Source: a virus. Taken from it: a stretch of 36,078 nt of DNA. Under the pieces are notes generated by a model. The model made no database searches. It was not told where the DNA came from and saw only the letters and a program-made list of their open reading frames with translations. Shown piece by piece: positions 1 to 13,045 of the stretch. The stretch covers positions 1 through 36,078 of IMG/VR virus record IMGVR_UViG_3300042860_002920; one strand, written 5' to 3'. Made by a program: the position numbers and the translations under genes. Every line of letters starts with the position of its first letter. Positions within the stretch are counted from its first letter, which is position 1.

Positions 1-78
1 AAGTCCTACAATCATGCAATGGAGATCATTGCTGAGCAAACCAAACTTGGCAATGAAGCAATCATCGTATTCTGGTAA
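1..78 (+). CDS. 3' end of an unidentified gene (partial)
   Basis: An open frame enters from the left edge and ends at TAA 76-78, giving 25 residues that finish in AIIVFW. Only the C-terminus is visible, so no function can be assigned. The next small gene starts 3 bases after its stop, which suggests one operon. Confidence 0.55.
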   Translation, partial: KSYNHAMEIIAEQTKLGNEAIIVFW

Positions 79-81
79 ATC

Positions 82-219
82 ATGAGCGAACTTGACTATC
101 AACCCGACTTCGATTATAATCAAACAGAATGGGAAGATGACATTCTGAGCGTACTCAACGAACAGACAATCAATGAAACTCTCGACAACGAAACCCATGA
201 ACTTCTCAAAAGTTTCTGA
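82..219 (+). CDS. small acidic hypothetical protein, 45 aa
   Basis: ATG at 82 lies three bases after the preceding stop, and the frame closes with TGA at 217-219. The product is strongly acidic (MSELDYQPDF..., with a WEDD patch) and has no cysteines, membrane segment or motif that I recognise. It overlaps the start of the next gene by 23 or 47 bases, depending on which start that gene uses. Close packing and base composition like the flanking genes support it as a real phage gene, but the function is unknown. Confidence 0.5.
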   Translation: MSELDYQPDFDYNQTEWEDDILSVLNEQTINETLDNETHELLKSF

Positions 220-493
220 TACGTTTCCCAAACGATTTGTCGATGATCTTGATGACATGCTGACAGATAGTACCTCCAATGGATGTACTGATTTACTTGA
301 TGATCTGCTGCAACTTATCAGCGAACGACTGGTAGAATTGAACGACTATTATACAACCAATCTCAATAGCGTGCAACACTACCAACGCCAAATCCTGGAA
401 CGCAAAGTAAAGTCCCCAGTACAACAAGATTGTTATACTGATGTCGTGAAGTTTCTGGATGGTGATACTTATTGCAGTTCTGATAATTGTTAG
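173..493 (+). CDS. hypothetical protein, 106 aa
   Basis: The frame 173-493 gives 106 residues, or 98 if the ATG at 197 is used. The 197 start reduces the overlap with the upstream gene to 23 bases, and neither start has a clear ribosome-binding site. The protein is acidic and Leu-rich in the middle (a DDLLQLISERLVEL stretch that should be helical), with three cysteines near the C-terminus. No known domain is recognised. It is the last gene before the 400-base non-coding region with DnaA-box-like repeats. Confidence 0.5.
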   Translation: MKLSTTKPMNFSKVSDTFPKRFVDDLDDMLTDSTSNGCTDLLDDLLQLISERLVELNDYYTTNLNSVQHYQRQILERKVKSPVQQDCYTDVVKFLDGDTYCSSDNC

Positions 494-512
494 TATGCTG
501 AAAAGCGCATAG

Positions 513-518
513 TATAAT
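513..518 (+). promoter_or_regulatory. possible sigma70-type -10 element
   Basis: TATAAT matches the bacterial -10 consensus exactly and lies just after the 106-residue gene. The best upstream -35 candidate (TTGTTA, 487-492) is about 20 bases away, which is longer than ideal. The downstream region is AT-rich and non-coding. It could drive a transcript through the DnaA-box region toward the 53-residue gene at 894, but the assignment is weak. Confidence 0.25.
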
Positions 519-558
519 AAATGTAAAAATAAATGTATTTTAGTTGTTGAGAAAGTGC

Positions 559-825
559 TGTGGAAATTGTGGAAAACTCTGTGTGTGGTTCTTATACCTG
601 AAACCCTTATAAATGCCCGCTGCCGTTGGTACCTAAGCGGTCGCACTATAAGACACACACAGTCTCACAGATCTCCCCCGTCCAGTTATAAGAACCACAG
701 CACACTTTTCCACAGCAAACTTATAAGTTTTCCACACGTTTTCCACAGTTTCTTATAAGTTTTCCACAGGCAGTTCGTGTTACTTATAGTGACAGACTGC
801 GATCTCGTTATAACCTGTGGAAAAC
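559..825. other. cluster of DnaA-box-like TTTTCCACA sites (candidate origin)
   Basis: Exact TTTTCCACA occurs on the + strand at 706-714, 728-736, 739-747 and 760-768, and on the - strand at 568-576 and 816-824. A one-mismatch - strand site lies at 559-567. TTTTCCACA is the cyanobacterial version of the DnaA box. The four + strand boxes start 22, 11 and 21 bases apart, close to whole helical turns, so they would face the same side of the DNA. A 17-base direct repeat (CTTATAAG plus the box) is found at 720-736 and 752-768. A perfect 12-base inverted repeat pairs 759-770 with 814-825. An origin, a DnaA-titration site or a regulatory array would all fit. Confidence 0.6.
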
Positions 826-893
826 TTTCGTTAATGGGAATGTGTTTGCCCTTATAGTTACACACCATTCCACACAGTTCCTAACAGTAACTC

Positions 894-1055
894 ATGAGCA
901 CTTCGTTGATGATCAATGCACTTCGTCTCGGTAACACTGGACGGGAGATCTTGAACATTCTAGATGCACTCGTGTCTGATGACAAGTCTACCACGTCTGG
1001 CAGTGTTTGTCAAGTCGTTTATAATGCACCCACAGCAGATGTGATCGACTTCTGA
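894..1055 (+). CDS. small hypothetical protein, 53 aa
   Basis: ATG 894 to TGA 1053-1055 encodes MSTSLMINAL... followed by a TGREILNILDALVSD segment. That gives an amphipathic helix ending in ILDAL, a pattern I recall from small proteins of other cyanomyoviruses, but no function is known to me. It sits between the DnaA-box cluster and a strong hairpin terminator, so it appears to be a single-gene unit or the end of a short operon. A ribosome-binding site is not obvious. Confidence 0.6.
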   Translation: MSTSLMINALRLGNTGREILNILDALVSDDKSTTSGSVCQVVYNAPTADVIDF

Positions 1056-1064
1056 TCGTTATTC

Positions 1065-1114
1065 ACCCCGTTCGTTCATTGTCACTTATCGACAGTGTTT
1101 GGGCGGGGTTTCTT
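1065..1114 (+). terminator. intrinsic terminator-like long hairpin
   Basis: ACCCCG (1065-1070) pairs with CGGGGT (1104-1109). Inside it, CATTGTC pairs with GACAGTG around a seven-base loop. A short TTTCTT tract follows. The hairpin begins 10 bases after the stop of the 53-residue gene. The T tract is short, so termination strength is uncertain. Confidence 0.55.
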
Positions 1115-1221
1115 ATATCCCTGGCGGGCGATGCCTAAAGCTAAAAACGCTAACTACCCTAACCTACAACGAACCAAAAGAGCGAACGAGATATAAGGAT
1201 TATAAAAAAATTTTTCAGGTA

Positions 1222-1229
1222 TATAAATC
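1222..1229 (+). promoter_or_regulatory. late-promoter-like TATAAATC
   Basis: This differs at one position (the last base) from the T4 late promoter TATAAATA. It lies 46 bases upstream of the first SGNH-like gene, in an AT-rich leader just after a terminator, where a promoter for the array would be expected. Confidence 0.35.
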
Positions 1230-1274
1230 ACTATAGGGTTTTCATAGAATATCAAAATTTTTTTGGGGTATAAA

Positions 1275-1997
1275 ATGCATTATAACCTTTTATTTCACGG
1301 ATGTAGTTTTACGTATGGTGGAGAATTAGATGGTATTAATAAAGATATCGAACATCAAAGAACTCATCGTTTTTCACATCTAGTAGCAAATCATTTTGAA
1401 ATGAGTTATGATAATATTTCTAGTCCAGCAAATTCTAATGATGCTATTGTAAGGGAAACGATTGAATGGTTTGAAAGTGGTAATACCTGCGATTTTGCTA
1501 TTATACAATTTACATATCTTGAAAGACTAGAATACGTTTGCAATTTTTACAATAAACCATTAAAAATTTATACAGGATTAACACAAGAATATTATTGGAA
1601 AGACAAATATATTAAAAAGATTTATGAGTTTTCAAAGCAAATGATTATGTCTTATTATAAAGAAGTATATAACCATAGTGATGCGATGTGCAGATTTTAC
1701 AAAAATTTATTTTTATTAGAACAATATTTTGAAAAAAATAATATTAAATATTATTTGATGAAAATCAATACTACTAAATTAAATTTTGACAAAGAAGCAA
1801 AATTATGGAAAAATATATGTAAGCATAAGTATAATGAATTAACCCCAATATGTAATGGTATTTTAAATGAACCATTTAATAATGCCGATTATTGTGAAAA
1901 AAAAGAAAATTTATTTTACTCAGGAGAACATCCAAGTGAGATTGGTCATCAAAAAATAGCAAATCATGTTATTGGAGTAATACAAGATGCATTATAA
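1275..1997 (+). CDS. SGNH/GDSL hydrolase-like protein, array copy 1
   Basis: I chose ATG 1275 (240 aa) over the in-frame TTG at 1263 because it gives MHYNLLF, the same start as copies 2 and 3. The N-terminal GCSFT (Ser11) fits SGNH block I, whose serine is the nucleophile. A D-N-I-S...SNDAI segment resembles block II. HPSEIGHQKIA with His219 resembles block V. SGNH enzymes remove acyl groups from sugars, lipids or glycans. Two typical features are missing: the Asp three residues before the block V His is Ser here, and the usual GxND of block III is replaced by an IIQFT..ER.E segment. Activity is therefore uncertain. Copies 1-3 share a nearly identical 33-base segment (1461-1493 here), and this gene overlaps copy 2 by 11 bases. 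Confidence 0.7.
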   Translation: MHYNLLFHGCSFTYGGELDGINKDIEHQRTHRFSHLVANHFEMSYDNISSPANSNDAIVRETIEWFESGNTCDFAIIQFTYLERLEYVCNFYNKPLKIYTGLTQEYYWKDKYIKKIYEFSKQMIMSYYKEVYNHSDAMCRFYKNLFLLEQYFEKNNIKYYLMKINTTKLNFDKEAKLWKNICKHKYNELTPICNGILNEPFNNADYCEKKENLFYSGEHPSEIGHQKIANHVIGVIQDAL

Positions 1998-2724
1998 CCT
2001 TTTATTCAGTGGATGTAGTTTTACTCAGGGGTGTGAATTAGAAGGTAAAGCAAAAGACTTTAAACATAGAGATACACATCGATATAGTCATGTAATTAGT
2101 GAAAGGACCAATAGAGCATATGAAAATATTGCTCTTAGTGGTGCATCAAATAATCGAATTACTAGAACAACAATAGAATGGTTTGAAAGTGGCAATACCT
2201 GCGACTTAGCAATTATACAATTTACTTTAGTTCAAAGAATAGAATTTATTTCTAAACTGACGGGAGAATTATCTTTGTTTTCGCAATACAATTTTATGGA
2301 ACACAAAAAAAATGATTTTTACACTGTGAAAAAACCAATAGATTTTGATGATTTAAAAAAATCCTATACAGAATATTACACTCAAATATATAATTTAAAT
2401 ATTGGATTAAATAATTTTTATAAAGATTTATTTTTGTTAGAGCAATATTTTGAGAAAAAAAATATTCCATATTATTTCATTAAGCTATCACACATTAATC
2501 ATATACTAAATCATAAAGATGTTCCGTGGACTTCCTTATGCAAAACTAATTATTTGGATATACCAACGATTAATGGAGACATTTTAACCATGAAATATGA
2601 GGGAGATGATTATACACCAGATTATTCAGAAGATGATCCAAAATATAAATTCTTAAATGGTATTCATCCCAGTGAATTAGGGCATCAAAAAATAGCAGAT
2701 TATATTATTAAACATGCACTATAA
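1987..2724 (+). CDS. SGNH/GDSL hydrolase-like protein, array copy 2
   Basis: This 245-residue paralogue of its neighbours starts inside the end of copy 1: the 11 bases ATGCATTATAA read as the final residues plus stop of copy 1 and as M-H-Y of copy 2. Block I is GCSFT (Ser11). The block II-like region is NIALSGASNNRI. Block V is NGIHPSELGHQKIA (His227), with Asn where the catalytic Asp normally sits. The central part (residues about 90-130) differs most between copies, as expected if substrate recognition varies. The gene is very AT-rich with A runs. Fold assignment rests on short motifs only, and the substrate is unknown. Confidence 0.7.
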   Translation: MHYNLLFSGCSFTQGCELEGKAKDFKHRDTHRYSHVISERTNRAYENIALSGASNNRITRTTIEWFESGNTCDLAIIQFTLVQRIEFISKLTGELSLFSQYNFMEHKKNDFYTVKKPIDFDDLKKSYTEYYTQIYNLNIGLNNFYKDLFLLEQYFEKKNIPYYFIKLSHINHILNHKDVPWTSLCKTNYLDIPTINGDILTMKYEGDDYTPDYSEDDPKYKFLNGIHPSELGHQKIADYIIKHAL

Positions 2725-5851: not shown

Positions 5852-5943
5852 ACCCTATTGCAAAGCTGATCCGATGGATTAAAGGCGAATATAAGTTGTG
5901 GAAACTTCGTAGACAAGATCCATACATTTATGAAGATGATTGA
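5848..5943 (+). CDS. very small basic protein, 31 aa
   Basis: ATG 5848 lies in the ATGA overlap with the preceding gene, and the TGA is at 5941-5943, just before the ATG of the carbamoyltransferase at 5946. The peptide (MNPIAKLIRW..., ending YIYEDD) is Trp/Arg/Lys-rich in the middle and acidic at the end. It has no recognised motif. Position and overlap support it, but its small size leaves doubt. Confidence 0.5.
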   Translation: MNPIAKLIRWIKGEYKLWKLRRQDPYIYEDD

Positions 5944-5945
5944 TC

Positions 5946-7331
5946 ATGATTGGAATAAGTGAAGGATTTCATGATGCTGCAATAGCAGTTGTTAATGGCG
6001 GTAAGATCAAATTTGCCGCTCATGCAGAACGATATTCTAGAGTAAAGCATGATAAGCATTTAAATCTACCAGTATGTGCAGAAGCACTGCTCCACACTGA
6101 AGATGATATTATTGCATTCTATGAACGTCCTTGGTTGAAGCGTACTCGTCAATTGTTTGCAGGACAGTACAAGAGTGCATTTAAAGAAAGGAGTATCTAC
6201 ATTACTCCTAATCAGTATTACTCACATCACCTCTCCCATGCTGCTGCAGCATTTCAGACATCACCATATTCCGATGCTGCATGTGTTGTCGTAGACAGTA
6301 TTGGTGAATGGGATACTGCTTCAATCTGGTATGCTCAGATGGTGGAGGGTTGTGCTAAGTATAAAAAAGTATGGTCACAGAAGTATCCAAGTTCTATTGG
6401 ATTGTGGTATTCTTCTTATACGAAATGGGCAGGTCTAAGACCCTTAGACGAAGAATACATCTTTATGGGTATGGCAGCGTTCGGTAAGCCCTTATACGTG
6501 GAACAAGCGCGTAAACTGCTCTCTAGAAATAACCACAAGGGCTTTTCCACCTCTCTTGAAGGAAATCCAGAAGACAACTCAAAGAGTGCAGAGGTTGTTC
6601 TTTATGAGGAACTGAGAAAAATTTTCAATAGAGCAAGGCAATATAGTAATAATATTTGTTATGGAGGAGGAGTTGCTTTAAATTGTGTAGTGAATGCTAA
6701 GCTACAAAACGAGCACCCGTTCATGTGGATTATGCCTAATCCTGGAGACGCTGGAGCTTCCTTAGGGGCAGCTTTATTATCTTATGGTGGTAAAGTCATC
6801 TTCACCCCATATTTGGGTGAAAACATTCAAAAAACGGTTAATCCAAAGGAAGTCGTTGACACATTACTGCACAGAGGCATGTGTGGGATTGCAAATGGTC
6901 CCGCTGAGTTTGGACCACGGGCTTTAGGTAATAGAAGTCTTCTAGCGGATCCTAGAACTCTACAGATGAAGGATTTAGTTAACACTGTAAAGAAGAGACA
7001 AAAGTTTCGTCCATTTGCTCCTGCTATTCTGGAAGAATATTGTCAAGACTATTTCCGTATGCCAGCAGAAAGTCGTTATATGTCCTTCGTATACGATTGT
7101 AAGCGTCCTGATGAGATCCCAGCATGTGTTCACGTAGATAATACTGCTAGAGTTCAAACAGTTCCTACATGGTCTTCTAGCATCCTTAGGGAAATACTTG
7201 AATGCTGGTATCAACGTACTGGTTGTCCAGTTCTTCTCAATACATCACTCAATATTCGTGGAATGCCTATTGTAAATACTTGGAATGATGCAAAAGAATT
7301 TTCTGAAAAATATAGTATTGAGGTTTTTTAA
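5946..7331 (+). CDS. NodU/CmcH-type carbamoyltransferase
   Basis: This family transfers a carbamoyl group from carbamoyl phosphate, through a carbamoyl-adenylate, to a hydroxyl group. The N-terminal Kae1-like domain starts MIGISEGFHDAAIAVV and continues with AERYSRVKHD and then HHLSHAAAAF near residues 94-103, whose histidines bind metal. The C-terminal domain carries GPAEFGPRALGNRSLLADPR (about 318-337) and LLNTSLNIRGMPIV near 432-443. In the last motif the usual GEPIV reads GMPIV. At 461 residues it is shorter than the usual 550-600. I prefer ATG 5946 to the TTG at 5940. The stop shares one base with the radical SAM start (TAATG). Substrates in the family include sugars, antibiotics and, in some viruses, hydroxymethylcytosine; which applies here cannot be told from sequence. 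Confidence 0.9.
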   Translation: MIGISEGFHDAAIAVVNGGKIKFAAHAERYSRVKHDKHLNLPVCAEALLHTEDDIIAFYERPWLKRTRQLFAGQYKSAFKERSIYITPNQYYSHHLSHAAAAFQTSPYSDAACVVVDSIGEWDTASIWYAQMVEGCAKYKKVWSQKYPSSIGLWYSSYTKWAGLRPLDEEYIFMGMAAFGKPLYVEQARKLLSRNNHKGFSTSLEGNPEDNSKSAEVVLYEELRKIFNRARQYSNNICYGGGVALNCVVNAKLQNEHPFMWIMPNPGDAGASLGAALLSYGGKVIFTPYLGENIQKTVNPKEVVDTLLHRGMCGIANGPAEFGPRALGNRSLLADPRTLQMKDLVNTVKKRQKFRPFAPAILEEYCQDYFRMPAESRYMSFVYDCKRPDEIPACVHVDNTARVQTVPTWSSSILREILECWYQRTGCPVLLNTSLNIRGMPIVNTWNDAKEFSEKYSIEVF

Positions 7332-8518
7332 TGAATAATGATGTAATCTGCTCACAACCATTCACTAAAATTCATAATCTGCCAGGAAAAAATTACGCTC
7401 CTTGTTGTTGGTCAAATTATTCTCAATTTGGTCCACAAAATACTTTACCATTTGACTATTTTGATGGAGAAGAATTTAGAAGAATTAGAAAAGAAATGCT
7501 TTTAGGTGATAAAACTGAGTTTCTAAAATCTGTTTGTAAAAAATGTTATAAACTTGAAGATGAAAATAACGATTCTCCTAGAAAACAATTTCCTGTAAAT
7601 GAAAGGATGTTAGAAAATTTTAATGCAGATGGATCATTAAAAGAAACAAATAATAGATTTGTTCATGTATCAATTAATGTTTATGGCAATTATTGTAATT
7701 TAGAATGTTATGCATGTAAATCCAGTAATTCAACATCTAGAAATAGTGCTTTAAAAAAATTAGATCCTAAATGGAGCAAAATTAGTGGTTTTTCAATTAC
7801 AGACAATTTAATTGCAGATGTTGATAAAGATCAATTTAATAATATTGTTAATCAATTAGTAAAGTATTCACATATTATTGCTACTGTAGAATTGATTGGT
7901 GGAGAACCAATGCTAATGAAATCGCATTTTAAACTTTTAGATGCCTTGATAACATGTGGTCAATCTAAACAAATCATGTTGTCTTATGTTTCAAACATGA
8001 CATTGATGAATTTAGATATTATGAAAAAATATTTTGATAATTTTAAACGTACTCACATTCAATGGAGTGTTGATGCTTTAGAAGAAAAAAATTATTGGTT
8101 AAGATATCCAACTGATTGGAACTCAACAATAAAAAATGTTTTTGATGTTCAAAGGTATTTGAATATTACAAAAAAAGGAAAAATAAGAGCAACAATTACT
8201 CCCAGTTTACTTGCAATTCCAAGTTTATTACAAACATATAAATGGCTTTATAGTAGAAATTTAATATCTAAGGAAAATTTCATATTCAACGTCATAACTG
8301 AACCAGAAATTTTAAAACCAAGAAATCTTCCAAATAAATTGAAAGAAAAAATTGCATTATCGGTAAAGTCAGTATCTGAGTTTCATTATAATGATCTGAT
8401 GCAAGAAAGAAATGAAAAAGAATTCCAATTAGCTATTCAATATTGTGATGAATTGGACAAATCTAGAGGTACTAATTGGAGATCTATATTTCCAGAAGTT
8501 GCAAAGTATGTAAATTGA
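7331..8518 (+). CDS. twitch-type radical SAM protein
   Basis: The 395-residue product has the radical SAM cluster motif C122-x3-C126-x2-C129 (YCNLECYAC), which binds the 4Fe-4S cluster that cleaves S-adenosylmethionine. GGEP at 190-193 is the SAM-contacting motif. An N-terminal cysteine set (C7, C25-C26 in APCCW, and CKKC near residue 70) looks like the auxiliary cluster region of twitch/SPASM-related proteins. The reaction it catalyses is unknown. The start codon overlaps the carbamoyltransferase stop, so the two are translated together and may act in one pathway. The gene is distinctly AT-rich compared with both neighbours, suggesting a separate origin. Confident for the family, not for the function. 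Confidence 0.9.
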   Translation: MNNDVICSQPFTKIHNLPGKNYAPCCWSNYSQFGPQNTLPFDYFDGEEFRRIRKEMLLGDKTEFLKSVCKKCYKLEDENNDSPRKQFPVNERMLENFNADGSLKETNNRFVHVSINVYGNYCNLECYACKSSNSTSRNSALKKLDPKWSKISGFSITDNLIADVDKDQFNNIVNQLVKYSHIIATVELIGGEPMLMKSHFKLLDALITCGQSKQIMLSYVSNMTLMNLDIMKKYFDNFKRTHIQWSVDALEEKNYWLRYPTDWNSTIKNVFDVQRYLNITKKGKIRATITPSLLAIPSLLQTYKWLYSRNLISKENFIFNVITEPEILKPRNLPNKLKEKIALSVKSVSEFHYNDLMQERNEKEFQLAIQYCDELDKSRGTNWRSIFPEVAKYVN

Positions 8519-8593: not shown

Positions 8594-9355
8594 ATGGCAA
8601 AAGGTTTTAAAGTGGTTACAAAACCACCCACATCATCTTCTAATAATACAGATGGTTTTAATTTAGAAGAAGCAAAACAAATGATTAAAGACAAGAGCAT
8701 TGTCTTTTGTCTTCCTGGAAGAGGCGTTTCATATACATATCTAAAGAATTTTGTACAACTCTGTTTCGATCTTGTACAAAATGGTGCTTCAATCCAGATT
8801 TCACAAGACTATTCTTCAATGGTCAACTTTGCCCGTTGCAAGTGTCTTGGTGCTAACGTCCTTCGTGGTCCCGATCAACTTCCTTGGGATGGTAAACTGA
8901 AGTATGATTACCAACTTTGGATTGATAGTGACATCGTATTCAATACAGAATCTTTCTATCGCCTAGTGTGGATGGATAAAGATATCTCTTGTGGATGGTA
9001 TGCAACTGAAGATGGTGTAACTACATCAGTTGCACATTGGCTTGAAGAAGATGACTTCAAGAACAATGGTGGTGTTATGAACCATGAGATGGTTGATGGC
9101 ATTCAAAAGCGTCGTAAACCATTCACTGTTGATTACACTGGGTTTGGTTGGACACTAATCAAACACGGTGTGTTTGAGCATCCAGAGATGAAGTATCCTT
9201 GGTTTGCACCTCAGATGCAAGTTTTTGAATCTGGTGAAGTTCAGGATATGTGTGGTGAAGACGTTTCGTTCTGTCTTGATGCTATTAAGGCAGGATTTGA
9301 AATTTGGTGTGATCCAATCTGTCGAGTAGGACACGAGAAGACACGAGTTATCTAA
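8594..9355 (+). CDS. glycosyltransferase-like protein (GT-A type)
   Basis: The 253-residue protein has a GT-A-like layout. A beta/alpha N-terminal half begins with SIVFCLPGRGVSYTYLKNF. WIDSDIVF near residues 110-117 carries a DSD motif, the DxD type that binds a metal and the nucleotide sugar. The C-terminal part (GEDVSFCLDAIKAGFEIWCDP) resembles the acceptor/catalytic ED region of family 2-like enzymes. I recall similar proteins as common in cyanomyoviruses near the baseplate genes. ATG 8594 is a clear start after an untranslated leader with a hairpin. The acceptor is unknown; a sugar on a virion protein or on host glycans are both possible. Confidence 0.65.
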   Translation: MAKGFKVVTKPPTSSSNNTDGFNLEEAKQMIKDKSIVFCLPGRGVSYTYLKNFVQLCFDLVQNGASIQISQDYSSMVNFARCKCLGANVLRGPDQLPWDGKLKYDYQLWIDSDIVFNTESFYRLVWMDKDISCGWYATEDGVTTSVAHWLEEDDFKNNGGVMNHEMVDGIQKRRKPFTVDYTGFGWTLIKHGVFEHPEMKYPWFAPQMQVFESGEVQDMCGEDVSFCLDAIKAGFEIWCDPICRVGHEKTRVI

Positions 9356-10760: not shown

Positions 10761-11165
10761 GTGCCTCTTCAAAAAATTTCTAGAGGTTTCAAAGACATTT
10801 CATTGTCAATGAAACGTCATCCAGTTACAAATGATATCCTTCCTCTAAAAAATGAGGATGCAATCAAGCGTTCTGTTCAAAATTTAGTAAGAATTCAAGT
10901 TGGAGAGGTCTTTTTTAACAATCTAATTGGCACTAGAATTAGTGGAGCACTATTTGAATTAGCAACAAGCGATTTTACTGCTCCAATAAAAACAGAAATT
11001 GAAACTGTTATTACAAACTTTGAGCCAAGAGTTGTACTAAAAAGCGTTGAAGTTGATCCAGATCCTGATAATAATGCTCTAGAAGTCACAATATCTTATG
11101 ACATAGTTGGTTTATCAACGCCTACACAGACAGTTACCTTTATCTTAGAACCAACTAGACTATAA
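10761..11165 (+). CDS. 25: baseplate wedge protein gp25
   Basis: The 134-residue product matches the GPW/gp25 lysozyme-like fold family, a conserved component of contractile tail baseplates that links the wedge to the sheath. Recognisable parts are DAIKRSVQNLVRIQVGEVFFNNLIGTRI, where incoming residues pack after a charged lead, and ETVITNFEPRVVLKSVEVDPD, the conserved NYEPRI-like block, followed by beta strands to the C-terminus. It is the usual length (T4 gp25 is 132). The start is GTG, just downstream of two late promoter motifs. The stop shares one base with the gp6 ATG (TAATG). Confidence 0.92.
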   Translation: MPLQKISRGFKDISLSMKRHPVTNDILPLKNEDAIKRSVQNLVRIQVGEVFFNNLIGTRISGALFELATSDFTAPIKTEIETVITNFEPRVVLKSVEVDPDPDNNALEVTISYDIVGLSTPTQTVTFILEPTRL

Positions 11166-13045
11166 TGGCACTAACACAATTTACAAATTTAAATTTTGAG
11201 GATATAAAATCCTCAATTAAGGATTATCTAAGAGCAAATACAAACTTTACAGACTATGACTTTGAAGGATCTAATCTTTCAGTCATCATAAATTTGCTTG
11301 CATATAATTCTTATATCACCGCCTACAATACAAACATGGTGGTGAATGAAACTTTTATTGATTCCGCCACTTTGCGTGAGAACGTTGTATCTCTTGCACG
11401 TAATATTGGATATGTACCACGATCAAAACGCGCTGCAAAAGCAACTGTAGACTTTTTTGTTAGTGGAATTTCTACAACAACAGACACAATTTCATTCCAA
11501 CCAGGGGTTGTTGCGAATGGAAGTGTTTCGGATGTCAATTTTATCTTTTCTCTACCAGAAAAAGTTACCGTAGCAGCGCAAAATGGGTCTTCTTTTGGTA
11601 GTTTAGAAATTTATCAAGGTCAATATTTAGAAAATTCTTGGACAGTTAACAATTCTCAACCAAATCAGCGTTATATTATCCCAAATGACAGCGTTGATAC
11701 GTCAACTTTGCGTATAAAGGTAAAAAATACATCCACAGATACAACTTTTACTGAGCATCAACTAGTTGATAATATCCTCGGTATTACTTCTACGTCAAAT
11801 ATTTACTTAATCCAAGAAACTACAGACGAAAAATACGAAATTTTGTTTGGTGATGGTGTTTTTGGTAAGAAATTACAGTCAGGAAACGTAATTACTGCAT
11901 CTTACATTAAGACAAATGGTAAAGATGGTAATGGAGTAACTGATTTTAGGTTTGCTGGAACAATTTTTGATGAAAATAACGCAAATATAACCTCATTTGC
12001 CGCTGATTTAACAGCACAAGTACCATCTGAAAACGGAGATGAGATAGAACCTGTCGAAAGTGTCAAATACTTTGCTCCTAGACTGTATTCATCTCAGCAT
12101 AGAGCAGTAACTGCAAGTGATTATGAGGCAATTTTACCAACATTGTATCCAAATATTGAAAGTGTGAGTGCTTATGGTGGAGAAGATCTAACTCCACCCC
12201 AATATGGACGAGTTTTTATTGCTGCTAAACCAAGAAATGGATCTTTCTTATCAGATTTCACTAAAAAGCAACTTTTACAATCCTTAAAGAACTATTCTGT
12301 TGCTGGAATTGTTCCTCAGTTTGAGGACTTAAAGTATCTTTATGTAGAAATTGACAGTTATGTTTACTATAACGCAAATTTCGTTGGTGATCCAAATAAT
12401 CTGAAAACTGATGTTATTTCTGCAATTACTTCTTATGCTAGAAGTTCAGAAATGAACCAATTTGGGGGAAGATTTAAATATAGTAAAACCTGTTCACTAA
12501 TTGATAACGTCAATACTGCTATTACTTCAAATATTACAACAGTAAGGATTAGAAGAGATCTTGTTGCACGTATAAATCAACCTGCACAATATGAATTGTG
12601 TTTTGATAATGAATTCTATACAGGTAAGAAAAATTATAATGTCAAGAGTACAGGATTTAGCGTATTTGGTATAGATGGTACATGTTATTTTTCTGATGAA
12701 GTCGTAAATGGATCTAATATCGGAAATCTTTTCCTTTTCCAAATTCTTTCCGATGAAGAGACGAATATTTTATCAACCAAATTTGGAACAGTCAATTATA
12801 GCACTGGTGAAATCCTTATAGATACTGTAAATATTACATCAACCAGTTTAGCAGACAATATTATTGAAGTTCAAGCAATTCCGCTATCAAATGATGTTTT
12901 AGCGAGAAAGGAATTGTATTTGCAATTAGATGTTTCTAAGAGCAATTTCTACATGAAGCAAGATAGCATCTCTTCAGGTGCAAATACTTCAGGAACAAGA
13001 TTTGATATTCAATCAAGCTATCAAAACGGTAAGAAAACAAGATAA
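11165..13045 (+). CDS. 6: baseplate wedge protein gp6
   Basis: The 626-residue protein is close in length to T4 gp6 (660), the J-like wedge protein that forms the inner baseplate ring. The N-terminus (FTNLNFEDIKSSIKDYLRAN) and the block DFEGSNLSVIINLLAYNSYITAYNTNMVVNE with SLARNIGYVPRSKRAA are typical of gp6/J-like proteins. A central HRAVTASDYEAILPTLYPNIESVSAYGGED segment is another family signature. Translation is coupled to gp25 by TAATG, and gp7 begins three bases after its stop. Order and spacing follow T4 baseplate organisation. Confidence 0.92.
   Translation: MALTQFTNLNFEDIKSSIKDYLRANTNFTDYDFEGSNLSVIINLLAYNSYITAYNTNMVVNETFIDSATLRENVVSLARNIGYVPRSKRAAKATVDFFVSGISTTTDTISFQPGVVANGSVSDVNFIFSLPEKVTVAAQNGSSFGSLEIYQGQYLENSWTVNNSQPNQRYIIPNDSVDTSTLRIKVKNTSTDTTFTEHQLVDNILGITSTSNIYLIQETTDEKYEILFGDGVFGKKLQSGNVITASYIKTNGKDGNGVTDFRFAGTIFDENNANITSFAADLTAQVPSENGDEIEPVESVKYFAPRLYSSQHRAVTASDYEAILPTLYPNIESVSAYGGEDLTPPQYGRVFIAAKPRNGSFLSDFTKKQLLQSLKNYSVAGIVPQFEDLKYLYVEIDSYVYYNANFVGDPNNLKTDVISAITSYARSSEMNQFGGRFKYSKTCSLIDNVNTAITSNITTVRIRRDLVARINQPAQYELCFDNEFYTGKKNYNVKSTGFSVFGIDGTCYFSDEVVNGSNIGNLFLFQILSDEETNILSTKFGTVNYSTGEILIDTVNITSTSLADNIIEVQAIPLSNDVLARKELYLQLDVSKSNFYMKQDSISSGANTSGTRFDIQSSYQNGKKTR

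Follow-up and report, generated by a model that had tools for sequence, protein, structure and literature searches.

The locus described here raises the question of why a T4-like phage of cyanobacteria would carry a compact cluster of sites matching the cyanobacterial DnaA box, and what such a cluster might do for the phage. The DNA analyzed (hereafter the window) is a 36,078-base fragment of a phage genome, and box counts for this phage cover those 36 kb only. The preliminary description had taken it for a T4-like phage of cyanobacteria, and gene content and phylogeny agree: the window is best classified as a T4-like cyanophage of the Kyanoviridae type. It encodes gp25, gp6, and gp8 baseplate domains in an order that matches the Synechococcus phages Sf-FS3 and S-SCSM2R, and in a gp6 tree it groups among cyanophages, beside relatives from IMG/VR. 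Two genes served as synteny anchors, namely that of a 253-aa conserved protein (T4-GC 102; 8594-9355, plus strand) and the gp6 baseplate wedge homologue (11165-13045, plus strand, PF21379), which follows the gp25 baseplate wedge homologue (10761-11165, plus strand, PF04965).

Other genes lie upstream of these anchors. Between 1263 and 4073 there are four successive ORFs of 210-249 aa, probably of one kin; several of them are matched by the same proteins of the relative L123, three of the four have weak matches to the tail-fibre family phrog_5240, and the set resembles a tandem gene family. Inside the baseplate region, a NolO-like carbamoyltransferase (5940-7331, PF16861/PF02543) is followed by a possible radical-SAM protein (7331-8518) whose score falls under the Pfam cut-off. 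The two may be sugar-modifying or auxiliary metabolic genes.

The window contains six exact copies of the 9-mer TTTTCCACA, every one inside 568-824, in non-coding DNA flanked by an ORF at 173-493 and a small ORF at approximately 894-1055, upstream of the gp25/gp6 baseplate genes. All six sites listed in the preliminary description (starting at 568, 706, 728, 739, 760, and 816) were found where it placed them. The span it gave, 559-825, holds for the exact boxes at 568-824, whereas its start at 559 belongs to a one-mismatch box, ATTTCCACA (559-567, minus strand), abutting the left box. The left box itself (568-576, minus strand) is an exact TTTTCCACA that is also found in relatives, with its position shifted in L443 and L444. 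The direct array comprises four boxes on the plus strand: box 1 (706-714, an exact TTTTCCACA), box 2 (728-736) 22 bp later, box 3 (739-747) another 11 bp on, and box 4 (760-768) after a further 21 bp. Boxes 2 and 4 are identical in L123, L443, and L444, and box 3 has one substitution each in L443 and L444. Because their starts are 22, 11, and 21 bp apart, the four direct boxes would lie on one face of the helix, and the coordinates confirm the arrangement that had been claimed for them. An inverted box (816-824, minus strand) lies 56 bp from box 4, an offset that recurs in other arrays, where the alternative is 78-79 bp. Alternating with the DnaA boxes across 591-857 are ten CTTATA/TATAAG words, several arranged as the palindrome CTTATAAG, which only some related lineages share.

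This clustering is not a product of chance. Only 0.82 exact copies of TTTTCCACA are expected in the whole window, and no shuffle reached the observed count of six. For the intergenic stretch, first- and second-order Markov models of the same region predict 0.02-0.04 copies, with a maximum of one in 3000 runs, in keeping with the earlier estimate of far less than one chance 9-mer in the array stretch. Shuffles, Markov models, and anagram control words together rule out chance clustering.

The array is also conserved at the same locus in relatives, beside the same anchor genes, as the preliminary description had suggested should be checked. IMG/VR, scanned for a three-box pattern, yielded at least 119 matching stretches; among the matches listed, 72 of 119 are T4-like cyanophages by protein similarity, and in about 45 contigs the array is accompanied by the anchor genes of the window. 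Where contigs are long, the array accounts for most of the boxes in the record. The 24 complete cyanophage genomes contain 96 exact boxes. The 9 kb upstream of gp6, which make up 4.5% of the DNA, hold 34 of these and every one of the 18 close box pairs (≤60 bp), the pairs being spread over 10 genomes. Five of the 24 genomes had been picked for a matching array, all among the 10 with close pairs; among the remaining 19, not picked by array, five carry exact boxes as a close pair at the locus. Even scatter through the genomes, which would have spoken against a functional array, was thus not seen, and the complete genomes and long contigs point to a single locus upstream of gp6.

Among the closest relatives, the array is present in all three whose contigs reach far enough (L123, L443, and L444), and the window and L123 align almost without a break in a 95-column block that covers the direct array. 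Across four close relatives, conserved columns number 42 of 54 in boxes versus 130 of 217 between boxes (p=0.017). The 22-11-21 pattern with its inverted box occurs in both orientations relative to the downstream genes. One IMG/VR record of 284,050 bases (L045 and L085) carries two DnaA arrays 210 kb apart, both accompanied by a separate anchor gene copy (80% and 71% identity to the window's), and is possibly a chimeric assembly of two cyanophages.

The spacing of the boxes follows a simple grammar. In 53 non-redundant phage arrays, same-strand gaps of ≤60 bp (n=118) are 11-12 bp in 36 cases and 20-22 bp in 60, and 99 of the 118 measure 11-12 or 20-23 bp, a phasing that would suit cooperative DnaA assembly. 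Inverted neighbors lie 13, 23-24, 56, or 78-79 bp away, and arrays hold 2-8 boxes. These peaks were not imposed by the search, because the pattern allowed 9-39 bp.

Cyanobacterial oriC usually adjoins dnaN and holds TTTTCCACA boxes, which agrees with the identification of this word as the cyanobacterial DnaA box in the preliminary description (DoriC 10, PMC6323995). Exact boxes were found at 28 of 30 cyanobacterial dnaN loci, chosen by DnaN alone, and the main same-strand spacings at these oriCs are 11-12 and 20-22 bp, matching the phage arrays. The window and its relatives therefore carry clusters of DnaA boxes that match the cyanobacterial consensus in both word and spacing. In small low-GC genomes and in genomes of 2.3-2.8 Mb with ~53% GC, which judging by size and composition look like Prochlorococcus and marine Synechococcus, the boxes at oriC are mostly one-mismatch forms, so the phage boxes are nearer to consensus than the oriC boxes of the probable hosts.

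The array is a patchy trait. It is convincing in about seven of the 24 complete genomes, namely DSL-LC03, S-RIM44, S-CAM1, ACG-2014d, P-TIM68, and DSL-LC02, plus S-SKS1 with variant boxes (TTATCCACA, TTATCCACA, and TTTTCCACA, 21 bp apart). Annotation places the arrays of DSL-LC03, S-RIM44, S-CAM1, ACG-2014d, and S-SKS1 in intergenic DNA. Other candidates are weak: the boxes of S-PM2 overlap tRNA-Asn and tRNA-Leu genes, the Syn9 pair falls within gp86, the S-SM2 pair falls within a predicted 34-codon ORF, and in P-SSM7 the pair looks like a local A+T-rich leader repeat. When contigs were chosen by the anchor protein alone and an array was defined as at least three exact boxes within 300 bp, it was present in 5 of the 53 contigs that reach 1.5 kb or more upstream and in 4 of the 23 that reach 5 kb or more (~10-17%). 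Anagram control words in the same sample did not cluster, with a mean of 0.03 contigs having even two.

Several close isolates have no array; array-less isolates include Sf-FS3, S-SCSM2R, and S-RSM4. A variant box does not explain them, as one-mismatch boxes are unclustered in most array-less isolates; such clustering was seen only in S-SKS1, S-T4 (a weak pair), DSL-LC02, and ACG-2014d. Mapped onto the gp6 tree, the array label requires approximately 11 changes and is present in all deep branches, with absence readable from isolates only because the IMG/VR entries on the tree were selected for arrays. Since the array is a minority trait, it cannot be essential to any cyanophage clade in its entirety, and the many relatives that lack it indicate that cyanophages are able to replicate without it. 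Five phages without a convincing array (P-SSM2, S-T4, S-SRM01, S-CAM7, and S-PM2) carry other clustered short repeats upstream of gp6, and repeats in the same region of box-less phages include ATCTCGAC, CCATAGAG, and AAATCTTA. It is as if different lineages fill this locus with different putative binding sites.

Further elements accompany the boxes. Between the array start and 500 bp past the array, a consensus sigma-70 promoter is present at 25 of 49 loci, compared with two in 225 kb of background. In many relatives it lies 50-100 bp past the last box, most often ~55-60 bp, and ACG-2014d has two boxes directly next to the -35 hexamer. No clear or strong consensus promoter was found beside the array in the window. 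Downstream lies a conserved leader element, ...AAAACGCTAACTACCCTAACCTACAACGAACC... (1142-1193, plus strand), whose core CTAACCTACA (1159-1168) occurs in a single copy in the window, ~0.3 kb downstream of the array; in many relatives a leader with this core follows at ~150 bp. Six of eight complete cyanophage genomes contain exactly one copy, always upstream of gp6 and on the gp6 strand, and other genomes have near-variants. Of the 24 complete genomes, 15 have the leader element in the zone upstream of gp6, and it is more widely conserved than the DnaA boxes. It has no Rfam match, nor did a search of window positions 1-2000 against Rfam return one. A late-promoter-like ATATAAAAA precedes the core in many relatives and an A+T-rich run follows it; the element may act as the leader of a late transcript or belong to an origin.

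In the window, the A+T-rich stretch after the leader (1195-1262, plus strand) ranks in the top 1% for duplex instability and is a candidate unwinding element. It lies ~0.4 kb from the boxes, its equivalents in relatives are modest outliers (median z 1.4), and at the boxes themselves duplex stability is above average. An unwinding element at this locus is therefore only weakly indicated.

Cyanomyoviruses lack motA and asiA, and a single theta origin has been predicted for Syn9 (PMC2984593), whereas T4 oriF and oriG are each built from a MotA promoter and an A+T-rich unwinding element (PMC3016281). The promoters found here are of the plain sigma-70 consensus, and with motA absent from cyanomyoviruses the locus does not correspond to an oriF-type origin. 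Another start mechanism is consequently needed, at least in some of these phages. The DnaA C-terminal domain (domain IV) was absent from all 32 phage records searched, which leaves no phage-encoded DnaA domain IV among them as a reader of the boxes. Cumulative GC skew in eight complete genomes showed no minimum at the array, and the detrended curve peaks near the array in several. Skew as an origin marker is unsupported in these eight genomes; the measure is confounded by nearly all genes lying on one strand, and recombination-dependent replication may erase it. Among the papers searched, two contain both terms but none links DnaA boxes with cyanophage genomes.

Taken together, the locus is a real, non-random, oriC-like array of DnaA boxes at a conserved position in cyanophages. 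The consensus boxes, their concentration at one locus, the oriC spacing, and the lack of a DnaA C-terminal domain in the 32 phage records suggest host DnaA as the reader, and the phage probably recruits or soaks up this protein through the array. We tentatively favor, at somewhat short of an even chance, a host DnaA binding array whose most likely job would be to start phage replication early in infection. Host DnaA would bind the boxes cooperatively on one face of the helix; DnaA, together with the promoter and A+T-rich leader beside such arrays, would open the duplex; and the helicase, primase, and polymerase of the phage, all of T4 type, would then take over. Such a start would take the place of the MotA-dependent R-loop mechanism at T4 oriF/oriG, a substitution we propose because cyanomyoviruses lack motA. 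The broader proposal, held with less confidence still, is that scattered lineages of T4-like cyanophages with a full T4 replisome and no MotA have repeatedly gained and lost, at a fixed position, an origin that mimics oriC and depends on host DnaA. An origin is the best single explanation, yet its rivals taken together are more probable than it is. Counting against it are the absence of a GC-skew minimum, the stable duplex over the boxes, the modest A+T-rich outlier, the array-less relatives, the mostly degenerate oriC boxes of the probable hosts, and the lack of a clear consensus promoter in the window.

Several of these same observations would also fit a sink or decoy, in which the array would titrate host DnaA in the manner of E. 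coli datA and halt new rounds of chromosome replication while nucleotides go to the phage, each phage copy bringing six or more high-affinity sites. A sink requires neither an unwinding element nor a skew signal, its patchy presence would suit an accessory function, and exact consensus boxes are what one would expect of a competitor facing the mostly one-mismatch boxes of the sampled picocyanobacterial oriCs. It would, however, need neither a fixed position nor an adjacent promoter, whereas arrays keep their position across deep branches and often have a promoter next to them, and 2-8 boxes per array are few for the purpose. We consider a sink unlikely, if the foremost of the rivals.

The frequent promoter, usually ~55-60 bp past the last box, raises instead the prospect that the boxes regulate an early sigma-70 promoter toward the baseplate genes, so that transcription would sense host DnaA. 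The abutting boxes in ACG-2014d and the double role of the locus as a conserved leader upstream of structural genes fit this reading. On the other hand, the array-less Sf-FS3 and S-SCSM2R have this promoter and leader too, arrays can face either way and lie as much as several kb from the anchor genes, and the window has no consensus promoter at its array; promoter control accordingly seems the least probable of the explanations weighed here. Slightly ahead of it, though still improbable, is a reading in which the sites are recognized by another phage or host protein of the same sequence preference, or are a functionless repeat. The unrelated repeats at this locus in box-less phages and the CTTATA words alternating with the boxes of the window mean that the region may simply collect repeats. 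Against this, the word is exactly the cyanobacterial DnaA box, its spacing is that of cyanobacterial oriC, the boxes are better conserved than their spacers, and the anagram controls do not cluster.

For T4-like cyanophages without the MotA route of T4, the array offers a concrete candidate site for the start of replication, and it is carried by laboratory isolates (S-RIM44, S-CAM1, S-SKS1, and DSL-LC03). If the host-DnaA reading is true, these abundant aquatic viruses would have their replication, or the shutdown of host replication, tied to a cell-cycle protein of the host. A repeatedly gained and lost origin would further mean that T4-like phages are not uniform in the opening step of replication.

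Several known systems invite comparison with the locus. The datA and DARS loci of E. coli are chromosomal sites of DnaA titration and reactivation with IHF and Fis as co-factors; like them, the phage array groups DnaA boxes in a non-coding stretch apart from the host oriC, but it belongs to a phage and comes with a promoter and leader. P1 oriR and iteron plasmids have DnaA-assisted origins with their own initiator (RepA) and iterons. The phage locus resembles these in placing host DnaA boxes within the candidate origin of a foreign replicon, and differs in that no initiator or iterons of its own were identified; the CTTATA words could be iterons, although nothing supports this. T4 oriF/oriG, which start from an R-loop, share with many of the relatives a promoter and A+T-rich leader in a T4-type phage, but their promoter is MotA-dependent, motA is missing from cyanomyoviruses, and DnaA goes unmentioned in a review of T4 origins (PMC3016281). 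Cyanobacterial oriC differs from the phage locus in its neighbors, since the latter has no dnaN nearby and adjoins structural genes, and in its longer spacings, which are 53-54 bp on the same strand in oriC, while the inverted boxes of the phages lie 56 and 78-79 bp away. In other respects the two are alike: both are non-coding, use the same 9-mer at 11-12 and 20-22 bp spacing, and gather several boxes of mixed orientation within ~300 bp.
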